The position numbers were made by a program, and so were the translations under genes. From positions 1-39,496 of the IMG/VR virus record IMGVR_UViG_3300043411_000873: DNA of 39,496 nucleotides; one strand, 5' to 3'. Positions 22,909 to 30,979 of this stretch are shown here, piece by piece. Each line of letters begins with the position of its first letter. Position 1 is the first letter of the stretch. Below the pieces are notes generated by a model, which was given only the letters and a program-made list of their open reading frames with translations, was not told where the DNA came from and ran no database searches. This stretch comes from a virus.

Positions 22909-24069
22909 ATGAGTGACGAACTCAAAACCGTCATTGCGGACGGCCTGCGCGCTGTGCAGGAGAAAATCGGGGGCGAGCTGCAAGCCGCCATGACCAAATT
23001 CGACGGCCAGTTGAGGGAACAGGGCGAGGTGCAAACCGAAACCCGAGATGCCGTCCAGAAGCTGTCGGTGCAGTACAAAGAGGTCGATGACCGCCTGCGC
23101 GACATCGAACAAAAAGGCGTGAAGATGAGCCTGCCCGGAAGCGGGAACAAAACCGCCGGCCTGCTGTTCACCGAAAGCCCGGAGTTCAAGGCGCTGTCAA
23201 GCGGTCAGCGTGAGAAGGTCCGCGTTGAGGTCAAGGCGACGGTGGTTTCGGATTCGACGACGGTTTTTCCGTACCAGAACCCGGGCATCATCGGCGGGGC
23301 ATTCGTGCCGTTGACGGTGCGTGACATCCTGACATCTGTGCCGATCAGTTCGAACATGGCGAACTCGCTTCGTGAGGCGTCCTGGACGAACTCGGCTGCG
23401 GAAGTGTCGCAGGGTGCTGCGAAGAACGAGTCGGACATTTCGTTCGAGCAGTACAACGTCGCCATCACCACGGTTGCGCACTGGATCAAGGTGTCGAATC
23501 AGTTGCTGGCGGACGCTCCGGCGATTGCGCGCTACATCGACACCAGGCTGCGTGATGGTCTCGCGCAACGCGTAGACCGCCAACTGCTGCTGGGCAACGG
23601 CACCTCGCCGAACCTGAGCGGATTCACCGATTCGGGCAACTACACCGCGTACACGCCCACGTCGGATGATCTGCTCGTGGATGCCATCAACAGGGCGAAG
23701 TACACGCTCTGGGCCGCCGGCTACCAGCCTACTGCCGTGATTGTGAACCCGGCGGACTGGGGCGCGATGGAACGCTCTCGCGAGTCGGCAGGCAGCGGCA
23801 TGTACCTGTACGGTTTGCCCGGCATGAACGCCGGCACAAACCCGTTCGGGCTGCGCGTGGTGCTGTCGACGCACCTCACCGCCGGCAAGATGCTGATCGG
23901 TGACTTCTCCAACAGCGCAACGCTGTGGGTGCGTGAGGGCGTGGCCGTGGAGATGGGCTACATCAACGAAGACTTCACGAAGAACCTGGTGACGATCCGC
24001 GCAGAGGAGCGTCTGGGGCTTGGAGTGGAGCGCGCAGGGGCCTTCTATTACGGCGACTTCACCGCCTGA
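22909..24069 (+). CDS. Major capsid protein, HK97 fold
   Basis: The 386-residue precursor has an N-terminal delta domain of about 90 residues with coiled-coil character (LREQGEVQTETRDAVQKLSV), then the mature shell sequence. Markers are ASWTNSAAEVSQGAAKNESD, WIKVSNQLLADAPAIARYID, QLLLGNGTSPNLSGF and GVAVEMGYINEDFTKNLVTI. A strong gapped site precedes ATG 22909. Cleavage after about residue 90-100 by the upstream protease is expected from the family. Confidence 0.95.
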   Translation: MSDELKTVIADGLRAVQEKIGGELQAAMTKFDGQLREQGEVQTETRDAVQKLSVQYKEVDDRLRDIEQKGVKMSLPGSGNKTAGLLFTESPEFKALSSGQREKVRVEVKATVVSDSTTVFPYQNPGIIGGAFVPLTVRDILTSVPISSNMANSLREASWTNSAAEVSQGAAKNESDISFEQYNVAITTVAHWIKVSNQLLADAPAIARYIDTRLRDGLAQRVDRQLLLGNGTSPNLSGFTDSGNYTAYTPTSDDLLVDAINRAKYTLWAAGYQPTAVIVNPADWGAMERSRESAGSGMYLYGLPGMNAGTNPFGLRVVLSTHLTAGKMLIGDFSNSATLWVREGVAVEMGYINEDFTKNLVTIRAEERLGLGVERAGAFYYGDFTA

Positions 24070-24118: not shown

Positions 24119-24403
24119 ATGGTTCAAGTTCATGTGTTGAAGCCGATCCGGGTGGATCGGCTGGGATTTGTGCCGCGTGGGCGAGTGGTCGAGCTGATTG
24201 AGGCGCACGCGCGGGAATACATGGCTCACGGAGCGGTTGAACTCTACGAAACGAAGGTGTTGCGGGAAAACCCCGCTCCTGCCGTTGGCGCACAGTTGTC
24301 TGCCTCGCCAGCGGTCCAAGCCTCACGGCGGCAGACGTTGACCGTATCCGCGAGTGGCGCACCGACCCGCAGGGGGAGACCTCCGAAGGTTCGCGCGCAG
24401 TAG
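24119..24403 (+). CDS. Hypothetical 94-residue head protein
   Basis: MVQVHVLKPIRVDRLGFVPR then VVELIEAHAREYMAHGAVEL is a small beta-alpha domain common after phage capsid genes. The rest is an Ala/Ser/Pro linker ending in a basic GRPPKVRAQ tail. Its second half overlaps, in another frame, the coding sequence for the N terminus of the next protein. A heptamer A-AAC-CCC at 24268 lies in its frame. Confidence 0.7.
   Translation: MVQVHVLKPIRVDRLGFVPRGRVVELIEAHAREYMAHGAVELYETKVLRENPAPAVGAQLSASPAVQASRRQTLTVSASGAPTRRGRPPKVRAQ
24268..24274 (+). other. Possible -1 frameshift heptamer (A AAC CCC)
   Basis: In the frame of the 94-residue gene the heptamer has the X XXY YYZ form. A -1 slip here would enter the open frame that begins RSCRWRTVVCLASGPSLTAA and leads without a stop into the 24406 protein. 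This is inference from frame continuity; a sequencing indel or an undetected start would give the same picture. Confidence 0.35.
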
Positions 24404-24405
24404 TT

Positions 24406-24867
24406 GTGACGAACACCACGTACAAGGCGGCGCCGTGGGCTGACGCGTTGTACGCGATGGACCGGAAGTGGTGGGAGGTCCATCTGGAGGATGTTCGCAA
24501 GTCGTTTGTCGGTGAGCGTGTGAGCCGGGCGAAGTTGCTGCACCGGTTTGGCGTGACGCATCTGGAGACGTTCAAGCATTACAACAACTCGGGGGCGGCG
24601 GCGATTTCGCTGGCGGCGCACCGTGGGGCGTCAACGATCATCCTGCTGGGATATGACTGCCAGTACACGGACGGCAAGCGCCACTGGCACGGCGATCATC
24701 CGCGCGGGTTGGGCAATGCTGGGTCGGTGGCGAAGTGGGTCCGCGGATTCGAGGAGCTTGCGTCGGCGATGGAAAAAGCGGGTGTGCGAGTGCTGAACGC
24801 CTCGCGCGAAACTGCACTCACATGCTGGGAACGGGTGGGTTTGGATGATGCACTTGCCGAGCGATAG
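24406..24867 (+). CDS. MptE/DUF115-like nucleotide-sugar-type protein, N terminus out of frame of any start
   Basis: From GTG 24406 the protein begins VTNTTYKAAPWADALYAMD and contains NNSGAAAISLAAHRGASTII then LLGYDCQYTDGKRHWHGDHP, a pattern of phage proteins related to the MptE/DUF115 fold. The same frame is open back to 24241 and encodes WRTVVCLASGPSLTAADVD, the expected nucleotide-binding N terminus of the family. No ATG, GTG or TTG precedes it. Either the N terminus is reached by frameshift, or the annotated protein is truncated. It begins a three-gene glycan-like block. Confidence 0.65.
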   Translation: MTNTTYKAAPWADALYAMDRKWWEVHLEDVRKSFVGERVSRAKLLHRFGVTHLETFKHYNNSGAAAISLAAHRGASTIILLGYDCQYTDGKRHWHGDHPRGLGNAGSVAKWVRGFEELASAMEKAGVRVLNASRETALTCWERVGLDDALAER

Positions 24868-25402
24868 CGTCCGAGGCCACATCAGGGGGTGGATTGAATC
24901 GCACGCGCATCTGTTGGGCGGCGACGTGCTGGAGATTGGCACGCGTCGGCATGCGGCATCTGCGTGGTGGTGTGAAAACCGCGATTTGGCGCAGGGCGAG
25001 TGGACCGGCATTGACATGCAGGCGGGCGCAGGGGTGGATCGGGTTGCCGACATCCACGCCCTGCCGCAGGAGTGGGGCGGCCGGTTTTCTGGCGTGGTGT
25101 GCTCCGAGGTTTTGGAGCATGTGCGCCGGCCGTGGGTGGCGTTGCCGGAGGTTCGCAGGGTGATGCAGCCTGGCGGGTGGTTGATCGTCACCACGCTGAC
25201 GGCGTTTCCGATCCACGGCTTCCCGGACGATTTTTGGCGGTTCACTGGGTCGGGGTTGGTGGGGCTGTTGACGGACGCTGGCTTCTCCGAGATTGCCACG
25301 GCGGCGGCCGGCGGGGTGGATTTCCACCTGAACGATCACGGCGAGGCGGGGTTTGTGCATCGTCGGTGCCCGGTGCACGTTTTTGCGGTCGCGCGGGCAT
25401 GA
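24845..25402 (+). CDS. SAM-dependent methyltransferase, class I
   Basis: The 185-residue protein has motif I GGDVLEIGTRRHAASA (about residues 24-40), the acidic GIDMQAGAGVD, and FSGVVCSEVLEHVRRPWVAL typical of type 11 small-molecule methyltransferases, then HGFPDDFWRFTGSGLVGLL. DNA-methyltransferase motifs (DPPY) are absent. Placed between a sugar-nucleotide-like protein and a glycosyltransferase, it may methylate a sugar or glycan on the virion. Confidence 0.8.
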   Translation: MMHLPSDSVRGHIRGWIESHAHLLGGDVLEIGTRRHAASAWWCENRDLAQGEWTGIDMQAGAGVDRVADIHALPQEWGGRFSGVVCSEVLEHVRRPWVALPEVRRVMQPGGWLIVTTLTAFPIHGFPDDFWRFTGSGLVGLLTDAGFSEIATAAAGGVDFHLNDHGEAGFVHRRCPVHVFAVARA

Positions 25403-26070
25403 TGCAGTTAATCACCCCGACGGGTGACAGGCCGCGTGCGTGGGCGCTGTGCGAGCGCTGGATGGCTCGGCAGACGTATGCCGGGCCGGTTGTGTGGCAC
25501 GTGGTTGATGATGGCGTGCTGCCGCTCTCCGCAGCCTTCACGCGGGACGGGTGGGACGTGCGGGTGCATCGGTTGGCGCCGATGCCGGAGAACACGCAGG
25601 CGCGCAACATGATGCACCTTTTGCGGCTGGTGACGCCTCAGCATCCTGTGGTGGTGATCGAGGACGACGACTGGTACGCGCCGGACTGGCTAGACACGTG
25701 TGCGCGGGAGATCCGGTCGGCCGAGTGCGTGGGCGAGGCGCCGGCGAGGTACTACAACGTGGCTAGGCGGGTTGCGCGGCAGTTGCAGAACGGCGCGCAC
25801 GCGAGCTTGTGCGCGACGGCGGTGCGTGGTCATGCGGTCGAGACGCTGAGGCGGGCCTGCGAGGGCAGGCGCACGTTCATCGATTTGGAGCTGTGGCGGC
25901 GGCATCACTCGCGGCGGGTGTTTGGTGGTCGTCGCGTGGTGGGGATCAAGGGATTGCCGGGCCGGGGAGGCATTGGCATGGGACACGATGCGCGGTTTGC
26001 TGGCAAGCCAGACCCTGACGGGGCGGTGTTGCGTTCATGGGTTGGCGCTGATGCGGAGGTGTACCTGTGA
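25399..26070 (+). CDS. Glycosyltransferase-like protein, GT-A fold
   Basis: ATG 25399 overlaps the methyltransferase stop. The 223 residues start MMQLITPTGDRPRAWALCER, have VVWHVVDDGVLPLS, and the DxD-type metal motif VVVIEDDDWYAPDWLDTCAR, as in family 2-like glycosyltransferases. The C terminus, GIGMGHDARFAGKPDPDGAV, is common in related phage proteins. A role in decorating capsid or tail is likely, not shown. Confidence 0.75.
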   Translation: MMQLITPTGDRPRAWALCERWMARQTYAGPVVWHVVDDGVLPLSAAFTRDGWDVRVHRLAPMPENTQARNMMHLLRLVTPQHPVVVIEDDDWYAPDWLDTCAREIRSAECVGEAPARYYNVARRVARQLQNGAHASLCATAVRGHAVETLRRACEGRRTFIDLELWRRHHSRRVFGGRRVVGIKGLPGRGGIGMGHDARFAGKPDPDGAVLRSWVGADAEVYL

Positions 26071-27673: not shown

Positions 27674-27754
27674 CAACAACCACCCGATACCCCGAATTCG
27701 GTAGGCATGTGCCTGCCGTGGTCGCGCGCGTGCGCATTTTCTGAGGAAACATCT

Positions 27755-28252
27755 ATGAGCACCCTGAAGACCCAAGGCACGCGCTTGTATTTCGCGTCGC
27801 CCGCATCCGCATCCAGCTCCGACGCCGATGGCGTGGTGATCATGTACGTCACCTGCCCGACCGGTATCCAGGGGCTTGGGGGTGCGGCCGATCAGATCGA
27901 CACGACGTGCCTTGATGCCACCGAACGCACGTTCGTGCAAGGGCTTTTGAATCCGGGGCAAATCACGGTGCCGTTTAATTTCGATCCGTCCGCCGCCTCG
28001 CACCAGGAGCTGATGTTGCTGCGCGACGCCGGGACCGTGATTAGCTGGATGGTCGTTTTCTCGGACGCCGTGAACGCGGGCACTGTGCCCACGTCTGTGG
28101 ACTCGGATGATCGGCTGGTGTCGGCAGGATCGACTACCGCCGAGTTTCTTGGCTACGTGAGCGACGTGACGATCGACATTCAGACGAACGAGATCGTGCG
28201 CGGTTCTCTGGTGATCCAGCGCTCCGGCGCGGTGGCGTGGGATTGGCCATAA
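27755..28252 (+). CDS. Major tail tube protein
   Basis: The 165-residue protein MSTLKTQGTRLYFASPASAS has the tail-tube pattern DQIDTTCLDATERTFVQGL then SAGSTTAEFLGYVSDVTIDI. The strong TGAGGAAAC site and a separate upstream gap (27674-27754) fit high expression. A GGTAGGCA-tg-TGCCTGCC hairpin sits in that gap. Confidence 0.88.
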   Translation: MSTLKTQGTRLYFASPASASSSDADGVVIMYVTCPTGIQGLGGAADQIDTTCLDATERTFVQGLLNPGQITVPFNFDPSAASHQELMLLRDAGTVISWMVVFSDAVNAGTVPTSVDSDDRLVSAGSTTAEFLGYVSDVTIDIQTNEIVRGSLVIQRSGAVAWDWP

Positions 28253-28359
28253 CAGGCGGAACGGCGATCCATAACGGCGATCTGGATTCCGGCCCCGCTG
28301 GCTCTGTGCTGTCTCGCCGTGGCGCATCCGGCGGGTGTCCGGTTCCTGAGGTGTGAGTG

Positions 28360-28701
28360 ATGAGCTACTTCGATGATCTGATCGATGCATCGCTGATCCA
28401 GCGCGAGTTATCGGTGCGCGGAAAAACCGTCCCGACGTGGTGGAAGCCGCTCACTGCTGGGCAGCGCGTGGAACTGCTGCGCGGGCAAGTGGTAAGGAGC
28501 GATGGTGAGTCCGCGTCGGTGGTCGAAGTCGATTTGGCGCAGTCCGCAGAACGCTCGCAGCGCATGGTGGTGATGACGCTGTGCACGCAGGACGGGCAGG
28601 CGGTGTATCGCGCGCTGAAGGATTTGCAGTCCGATCCGTCGTGGCTGATCGATGCGCTGGTCGATCTTGCGCGCAAGGTGCACGACGAGGGAAACGGCTA
28701 G
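28360..28701 (+). CDS. Tail assembly chaperone G-like protein
   Basis: The 113-residue protein MSYFDDLIDASLIQRELSVR with VVMTLCTQDGQAVYRALKDL is a tail assembly chaperone, equivalent to lambda gpG. It ends shortly after a G-GGA-AAC heptamer, where a -1 slip would extend it into the next frame. Confidence 0.85.
   Translation: MSYFDDLIDASLIQRELSVRGKTVPTWWKPLTAGQRVELLRGQVVRSDGESASVVEVDLAQSAERSQRMVVMTLCTQDGQAVYRALKDLQSDPSWLIDALVDLARKVHDEGNG
28689..28695 (+). other. -1 programmed ribosomal frameshift site (G GGA AAC)
   Basis: In the chaperone frame the codons are gaG GGA AAC ggc tag. This is the same X XXY YYZ form as lambda G/GT (G GGA AAG) and lies two codons before the stop. After the slip the frame reads RLDLADEWHRWLVRLSLIM and stays open to 29015. 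Confidence 0.88.
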
Positions 28702-29015
28702 ACCTCGCGGACGAATGGCATAGGTGGCTGGTGCGTCTATCGCTAATCATGCGCCGGCCCGTCCACGAGGTCATGGCGTGGCCGCTCTGGGTCACGCGGG
28801 TATATGCCGAGTTCCTGAGCCGCGAGCCGCTGCCAGAGGAGCGCATCGAACTCGGTCTGGCGCAACTGACGGCCAATCACGCCGCAGTACACCGCGCTCC
28901 GGGATCGCCCGCGCCGCGAGCTGCTGATTTCCTGCTCGCCCGCGATGCCTGGCGCGACGCCGGGGATGGATACACCGAAACCGATCTGGCCATCATGAGG
29001 CAACTGCTGAAATGA
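28695..29015 (+). CDS. T extension of the tail chaperone (frameshift product GT)
   Basis: The -1 frame encodes about 106 residues, with LSLIMRRPVHEVMAWPLWV, VYAEFLSREPLPEERI and HAAVHRAPGSPAPRAADFLL. It has no good start of its own and is best read as the T domain of a GT fusion of about 218 residues. As in lambda it would bind the tape measure and recruit tube subunits. Its stop overlaps the tape measure start (ATGA). Confidence 0.85.
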   Translation, partial: RLDLADEWHRWLVRLSLIMRRPVHEVMAWPLWVTRVYAEFLSREPLPEERIELGLAQLTANHAAVHRAPGSPAPRAADFLLARDAWRDAGDGYTETDLAIMRQLLK

Positions 29016-30979
29016 AGATATCAGTCATCCTCGAGGCGCTGACCGGCCGGTTCGAGACGGACATCAAGCGGGCGTCGAAAGAGTCGGAACGCGCGTTCCG
29101 GCGCATGAAGTCCGAGGCGAATGCCGCGGCGAAGGTGATCGGCGCGTCGTTGGCAACGGCGGCGGCGGGGGCCGCCTACGCGATCAAGGGTGCCATCGAC
29201 GAGATGGACCAGATCAGTAAAACGGCACAGAAGATCGGCACTACCACTGAGGCGCTTTCGGCACTGCAATACGCCGCGAAGCTGTCCGACGTATCTGTAG
29301 GCCAATTGCAGGCCGGCATGACGCGCCTGGTGCGCGCACAGGCGGAGGCGGCGCGGGGCACCGAGCGGTACGTCGATCTGTTCGGCGCGATCGGCGTTGC
29401 GGCGGTCAACGCGGACGGGACGCTGCGCAATTCCGCTGACGTGATGACCGATCTGGCGGACGTGTTCGCCTCGCTGCCGGACGGTGCGACGAAAACCGCG
29501 CTCGCGGTCGAGCTGCTCGGCAGATCGGGGGCGGACCTGATCCCGCTGTTGAATGGCGGGGCGACAGGGCTGGCCGAGATGCGCATCGAGGCCGAGCGGC
29601 TGGGGCTGGTGATCTCTGGCGAGGCGGGGAGGGCGGCGGAGGAATTCAACGACAACATCACACGCATGGGCGCCGCTGTTCGTGGAGCGGCAATTGAGGC
29701 CGGAGCGCAACTGCTGCCGGTGCTGAGCGACTTGTCCGGGCAGGTGGTTTCGATGGCGAAAGACCCAGCGTTCCGCGACGGGCTAGCGGATGCGCTCCGG
29801 GGTATCGGCGAGGCGGCTATCGCCACAGCGAACGGGATCGCCGCGCTGGCGGGCACGATGCGGTTTTTCGGTGAGTCGGTGGCCGCATGGGTCAGCGGCC
29901 CGGCCGTTGGAGACTTGCCGCGCATCGATGATGCGATCGCGGAAATCGAGCGCAAGCTAAAGCGGCTTGACGATATGCGCAAGGCGTCTGGCACAAGCGG
30001 ATCGAGCGATGAGCCTGCGCTGCGGGCAGAGCTGGAGCGATTGCGCCAGATGCGCGACGTGACGCTCGAACTGGCGGCGGCAAGGAAAGAAGTCGCGGCA
30101 GTCGCCCCGCCCGGTGCGGGCGCAGCACCGCGCGCCATTGGGCGGATATTCGCTCCGAGCGCCGGGGCCGCAGCGCAATCGAGCGGCCCAAAAAAGCAGT
30201 CCACCCGCCTGCGCGACATCTACCTGCAGCAGGCCGACGAGGGGCTGCGCGAGGTCGAGGAACGCTACCGCGAGCACGCGCGGATTCTGGAGGGCGTTGA
30301 CCGTCTGCGGCTGGAGGCGATGGATGAGCATTCCCGCTCGGTGGTGCAGTTGCAGGATAAGTACGGCGAGCTCACCGCCGCGGTACAAGCCGGGGCCGTC
30401 GAGCAGCAGGAGGCAGCGCAGATTGCCGCAGGGCTTGCGCAGCAGTGGAGCGAGCACGTTAAAACCGAGACGGAGAGCATGAGCGAGTTCGCGAAGGCTG
30501 CGGCGCAAAATATGCAAACGGCGTTCGCGGACTTCCTGTTCGATCCGTTCTCGGGCTCGCTGAAGAGCATGGCCGCTGAATTCGCCGGGGTGCTGCGCAG
30601 GATGGCGGCGGAAATGCTCGCGGCCAAAATTTTTGGCTCACTCGGCAAGGCGGGCGAGGGGAAAACCGGCTTCATGGGCTCGCTGCTCGGCTTTTTCGCG
30701 GGGGCGAAGGATGCTGGGGGATCGGTCCCCGCCGGCACGTTTGCGTTGGTCGGCGAGCGCAGGCCGGAACTTGTGGCAGGGCCGGCGACCGTGGTTGGTG
30801 GGGCGCAGACGGCCTCTATGCTGCGGCCGCGCGAGCGAGGCGACACGAAGATTCGGCTGATCTCGATCACCGACTCGCAGAACTTCAACGACTACTTGGG
30901 CAGCGATCCCGCCGAGCAGACGCTTATCGCGTTCGCCGAGCGGAACCAGGGCTTTTTCCGTCAACTGGTTGCGTCATGA
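29012..30979 (+). CDS. Tape measure protein
   Basis: The 655 residues begin MKISVILEALTGRFETDIKR with a coiled-coil start (SKESERAFRRMKSEANAAAK), then hydrophobic Ala-rich helices, the segment KIGTTTEALSALQYAAKLSD typical of phage tail tape measures, and a long helical middle. A hydrophobic C-terminal part follows, with LFDPFSGSLKSMAAEFAGVL and VPAGTFALVGERRPELV. At roughly 1.5 angstroms per residue it would set a tail near 100 nm. Confidence 0.93.
   Translation: MKISVILEALTGRFETDIKRASKESERAFRRMKSEANAAAKVIGASLATAAAGAAYAIKGAIDEMDQISKTAQKIGTTTEALSALQYAAKLSDVSVGQLQAGMTRLVRAQAEAARGTERYVDLFGAIGVAAVNADGTLRNSADVMTDLADVFASLPDGATKTALAVELLGRSGADLIPLLNGGATGLAEMRIEAERLGLVISGEAGRAAEEFNDNITRMGAAVRGAAIEAGAQLLPVLSDLSGQVVSMAKDPAFRDGLADALRGIGEAAIATANGIAALAGTMRFFGESVAAWVSGPAVGDLPRIDDAIAEIERKLKRLDDMRKASGTSGSSDEPALRAELERLRQMRDVTLELAAARKEVAAVAPPGAGAAPRAIGRIFAPSAGAAAQSSGPKKQSTRLRDIYLQQADEGLREVEERYREHARILEGVDRLRLEAMDEHSRSVVQLQDKYGELTAAVQAGAVEQQEAAQIAAGLAQQWSEHVKTETESMSEFAKAAAQNMQTAFADFLFDPFSGSLKSMAAEFAGVLRRMAAEMLAAKIFGSLGKAGEGKTGFMGSLLGFFAGAKDAGGSVPAGTFALVGERRPELVAGPATVVGGAQTASMLRPRERGDTKIRLISITDSQNFNDYLGSDPAEQTLIAFAERNQGFFRQLVAS

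Follow-up and report, generated by a model that had tools for sequence, protein, structure and literature searches.

Programmed -1 ribosomal frameshifting in the head and tail genes of phages is already known. In phage lambda, the tail assembly chaperones G and GT share an N terminus, and the frame downstream of their slip site, which is located between the major tail and tape-measure genes, has no start codon of its own. In Escherichia coli, C_CCU and C_CCC are prone to shifting whereas C_CCA and C_CCG stay near background, and the heptamer C_CCA_AAG is the most efficient one with up to 54% (PMC4066793). Here we analyse a virus sequence of 39,496 nucleotides (IMG/VR record IMGVR_UViG_3300043411_000873, hereafter the window) in which, judging from sequence comparison, expression of an enzyme frame relies on programmed -1 ribosomal frameshifting with a probability of about 0.95. 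As in lambda G/GT, the predicted slip would occur in a morphogenesis gene, the products would have a common N terminus and the downstream frame is start-less. Unlike the lambda pair, the site follows the major capsid gene and the added domain has an enzyme fold. The predicted slip at 24268 does not lie between the major tail gene (27707-28252) and the tape-measure gene (29012-30979) of the window. The usual G/GT place between these two genes is occupied by two other open reading frames (28357-28701 and 28581-29015), which overlap in a -1 relation.

On the forward strand of the window, an HK97-type major capsid protein gene (22909-24069; phrog_10, E=2e-53; PF05065, E=6e-42) is directly followed by a small open reading frame of 94 residues (24119-24403), which starts at ATG 24119 and matches phrog_7993 (E=1.7e-5). 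The ~52 N-terminal residues of its product constitute the shared domain, while the tail, rich in serine, proline and arginine, corresponds to the overlap with the enzyme frame. The original prediction described this second frame as open from 24241 and devoid of ATG, GTG or TTG before GTG 24406, and every coordinate is correct: no stop codon is found from 24241 to 24867, and GTG 24406 lies 31 codons 3′ of the G of the GPSL motif (24313-24324), the first conserved strand of the enzyme. CTG, ATT, ATC and ATA are also absent from this frame of the window, from the upstream stop as far as the GPSL strand. The start-less stretch had further been taken for the conserved N terminus of the enzyme. This is borne out, since the match to phrog_4603 (named ‘alpha-2,3-sialyltransferase’; E=1.6e-55) spans residues 22-207 and profile positions 1-175 of 178 and thus takes in the conserved N terminus of the family. 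The Pfam MptE-like profile (PF01973) gave 21.9 bits over 27 residues only, below the curated cut-off of 34.6, and comparing the enzyme profile with the sequences of solved structures yielded nothing useful.

The heptamer A_AAC_CCC, which includes the tetramer C_CCC (24271-24274), does lie at 24268-24274 within the 94-residue frame, as had been pointed out, and its register is right for a -1 slip into the enzyme frame. The phrog_4603 / MptE-like domain would then be read in the -1 frame (24274-24867), and the predicted transframe product (24119-24867) would comprise 249 residues, encoded by 24119-24274 in frame 0 and by 24274-24864 in frame -1.

Downstream of the enzyme, the window carries a methyltransferase gene and a weakly matching glycosyltransferase-2-like gene (24845-26070). 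Methyltransferase and glycosyltransferase-like genes, judged from their translations only, also come after the enzyme in the relatives L025 (3591-5436) and L077 (3060-4830). Such genes may form a modification cassette within the head module.

Viral contigs, together with one genome for each bacterial species, were scanned and provided 159 usable loci, which were reduced to 96 representatives of less than 90% identity; these sequences are related, so the counts below are not independent of one another. The succession of capsid gene, small open reading frame and phrog_4603 frame overlapping at -1 occurs in 73 of the 96 representatives and is therefore more than chance. In 58 of these 73, the stretch from the upstream stop to GPSL contains no ATG, GTG or TTG. 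Relatives with a normal start, which the original prediction had named as counter-evidence, do exist when the gene is free-standing at another place in the genome, but not among these 58 overlapping forms. In the interval from the slip site to GPSL, no ATG, GTG or TTG is observed in any of the 72 representatives that have one, whereas the rate farther upstream would predict 8.4.

A search for the small protein with a narrow alignment found 13 loci, 12 of which also have the enzyme frame, and in L172, where the small frame occurs without the enzyme, the overlap tail is missing. The small protein alone as query had no match in the phage collection. The overlap form is widely scattered over a quickly built tree of 94 enzyme domains, with at least three changes of form on well supported branches. 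Two alphaproteobacterial loci, L151 and L155, are divergent; L151 combines G_GGA_AAG with a strong fold. Since both copies keep the overlap, the predicted frameshift device may extend beyond the phages of gamma- and betaproteobacteria.

A homopolymeric slip codon of the -1 frame is located 13-19 codons 5′ of GPSL in 72 of the 73 representatives, and exactly at codon -14 in 41. Of the 72 sites, 27 are complete X_XXY_YYZ heptamers of at least seven kinds (C_CCA_AAG, C_CCT_TTN, A_AAC_CCN, A_AAG_GGC, G_GGA_AAR, A_AAA_AAR and A_AAT_TTC), and 45 are C_CCY tetramers. The site of Pseudomonas aeruginosa phage D3 is C_CCA_AAG. PMC4066793 does not name the window heptamer A_AAC_CCC among the strong heptamers of E. 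coli. In Pseudomonas phage Psp6 (L004, 1387-2067), the overlap is likewise start-less, and a clear slip codon is missing where expected.

The choice of proline codon is biased. Among the 58 sites with such a codon, CCT is used 33 times, CCC 21 times and CCA four times, always within C_CCA_AAG; CCG, elsewhere in the frame the commonest proline codon, never occurs at the slip site. This choice matches the slippage measured in E. coli (PMC4066793). Furthermore, a C precedes the proline codon in 43 of 46 cases at codon -14 vs 28 of 127 farther upstream. Stop codons of the -1 frame number 93 in 2160 codons upstream of the site vs none in 1008 codons downstream. In 13 representatives, such a stop is found no more than three codons before the site, which confines the slip to this position.

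A predicted stimulatory hairpin (24281-24315) begins 6 nucleotides 3′ of the window heptamer, its 10 bp stem pairing 24281-24290 with 24306-24315. Compared with shuffled sequences, the region folds with a mean z of -2.26 in 72 representatives, vs -0.39 in 23 relatives in which this protein segment is encoded with no overlap, from their own start or as an in-frame fusion. RNAalifold alone, applied to the whole alignment, returned a different and weak structure; the stem from the single fold was then tested directly. In the alignment of 63 sequences, an 11-pair stem has 87.9% of its cells paired, and the pairing is abolished by sliding the partner. Compensatory changes alter both sides in 17 cells at five pairs, a cell number reached by none of 500 shuffles; alignment pair 44-84, for example, varies between G-C, G-U, A-U and C-G. 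The covariance model R1 built from these 63 sequences, the window included, detects the element in the window (E=9e-17) and matches nothing else there, and the element has no match in Rfam. Upstream of the heptamer, a Shine-Dalgarno-like GAAGGTG (24253-24259) ends 8 nucleotides 5′ of it. Over the representatives, the strength of such elements averages -4.25 vs -3.61 for synonymous shuffles, a difference of ~2 sd in one of five intervals, which gives a weak hint that the element might act as a stimulator.

In some relatives, the two parts are joined without any slip. L025/L026 and L077 encode the small-protein domain and the enzyme as a single-frame fusion directly 3′ of the capsid gene. Slip site and hairpin are both lost in L077 and L025, and their remaining frames are full of stops, so that these fusions are not recent errors. 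The L077 protein (247 residues) and the predicted window fusion (249 residues) are 51% identical from end to end (E=1e-82), and their alignment is ungapped across the junction, with VLRENPRSCRWRTVVC against VLRDRPRDGRWDTVVC. The N terminus of L025 matches the small-protein profile with an hhalign probability of 93%, and in the tree L025 clusters with L029, L142 and L151, which have G_GGA_AAR sites (support 85%). The free-standing enzymes P1 pmgO and PAJU2 gp10 belong to the same family, phrog_4603, and share the GPSL start, but they are located elsewhere in the genome, have no slip site and start with an ATG just 5′ of the conserved strand, close to the position of the slip junction.

Several other explanations have to be weighed against these data. 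The original prediction had left three options, of which the -1 frameshift with its ENP-RSC junction is now supported by comparison with relatives; hairpin, conservation and in-frame fusions are additions to it. A new arrangement of the gene is not the option favoured by this comparison, which points to a -1 slip at 24268-24274. Because the window represents only one record of an uncultivated virus, a missing or extra base, through faulty sequencing or a genuine frameshift mutation, could have parted the enzyme from its start. However, the start-less -1 overlap recurs in dozens of diverse records, among them isolate genomes of Bordetella, Achromobacter, Halomonas and Alcanivorax as well as phage D3, for which a second, independent record has an identical element, and the small frame is itself conserved together with its overlap tail. 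This recurrence in isolates and in D3 excludes the indel, to which we attach a vanishingly small probability. A shift by the polymerase, which would add or drop a base before normal translation, might be conceived for a few relatives with long A runs (L043, L069). The runs known to cause transcriptional slippage are far longer than the approximately four C of most sites, and both the hairpin and the choice of C_CCY codons fit slipping of the ribosome and not of the polymerase; transcriptional slippage is thus extremely improbable.

The enzyme frame could also be initiated independently at a non-standard start, perhaps in coupling with the small frame. Fifteen of the 73 representatives, including D3, do possess a GTG, TTG or ATG upstream in the -1 frame (for D3, L011, L012 and others, a GTG at codons -22 to -26), and annotators of the D3 group have chosen GTG or later starts. 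Yet the existing GTG positions are not conserved and, like all these upstream starts, lie 5′ of the slip site, and 41 of the 73, the window among them, are devoid even of CTG, ATT, ATC and ATA up to codon -7. Independent initiation would moreover leave the slip motif, the hairpin and the in-frame fusions unexplained, and we regard it as very improbable, if slightly less so than the other alternatives. Lastly, the ORF call offers no start other than GTG 24406, and starts of this type were picked by annotators of D3 relatives, which might indicate a truncated enzyme with an untranslated upstream part. Such an enzyme would be deprived of the invariant C-x-ASGPSL strand of the family, whereas this strand is kept in 73 representatives without any -1 stop 3′ of the slip site; a truncated product therefore has hardly any probability.

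With programmed -1 frameshifting as the preferred reading, expression of the locus could be envisaged as follows. Ribosomes would translate the small frame after the capsid gene and would be held up at A_AAC_CCC by the hairpin 6 nucleotides farther on, where a fraction would slip back by one base. These ribosomes would continue in the -1 frame and produce the 249-residue fusion of the small-protein N-terminal domain with the phrog_4603 enzyme domain, while those which do not slip would complete the 94-residue protein. Two products with a common N terminus would result, in a ratio set by the slip, like lambda G and GT or retroviral Gag and Gag-Pol. Comparative evidence demonstrates the arrangement, the candidate site, the predicted hairpin and the in-frame fusions in relatives; slipping in cells and its rate are what we infer from conservation and from published motif efficiencies.

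Current annotations do not reflect this organization. In records of the D3 group (D3, PMG1, D14C, phi1, phi_D3 and FBPa47), the annotated start of the gene lies at differing internal positions or the gene is not annotated at all, and a join of the two frames appears in none of the six. The loci L002, L003, L006, L007 and L177 of this group show at least three different annotated starts, some of them 3′ of GPSL, and phi1 has no annotation of the gene. The passages searched in PMC3711429, PMC4066793, PMC10885494 and PMC5009743, which deal with predicted prokaryotic frameshifts, make no mention of the site. Site, C_CCY preference and enzyme fusion were likewise not found in the open-access literature searched, a result which is not proof of absence. 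The frameshift would provide the true N terminus of a phrog_4603 head-module gene in D3-like and many other proteobacterial phages. It would also supply a large collection of naturally occurring C_CCY slip sites, and because their codon choice tracks the E. coli efficiencies, the rules of proline-codon slippage become testable.

The role of the fusion can be approached through the small protein. Pfam DUF7210 is matched by 15 of 24 small-protein relatives (best E value 3.8e-7), although the window protein itself has no match, and relatives show weak similarity to part of lambda gpFI (2lsm; E=0.02 to 0.11 over 22 residues). Lambda FI is also situated after the capsid gene. Together, these features suggest that the enzyme is possibly held on assembling heads, and the fusion probably serves to tether the enzyme to a protein of head assembly. 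A coupling of the enzyme to head assembly in these phages is thus suggested and could be directly tested in phage D3. More tentatively, the locus might represent a Gag-Pol-like device of tailed phages, in which the frameshift, relying mainly on C_CCY single-codon proline slippage and a hairpin, couples a nucleotide-sugar-type enzyme with a small protein of head assembly. A set fraction of assembly subunits would thereby deliver the enzyme to the prohead or virion, where it might modify the particle or travel within it; we would, if pressed, lean against this full scenario.

Two known groups of systems, both treated in PMC5009743, help to place the locus. In the frameshift-extended capsid proteins of phage A2, T3/T7 (10B) and Listeria phage PSA, the slip is likewise found in the head gene region and gives an extended minor product. 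Unlike in these phages, the predicted slip of the window (24268) lies beyond the capsid gene (stop at 24069), in the next gene, and the added part is not Ig-like. With retroviral Gag-Pol, the window would share the tie between an enzyme and an assembly protein through a -1 slip and a downstream RNA structure. Unlike Gag-Pol, however, it belongs to a DNA phage and would depend on the bacterial ribosome, with no known proteolytic processing and with a presumed tethering of the enzyme.
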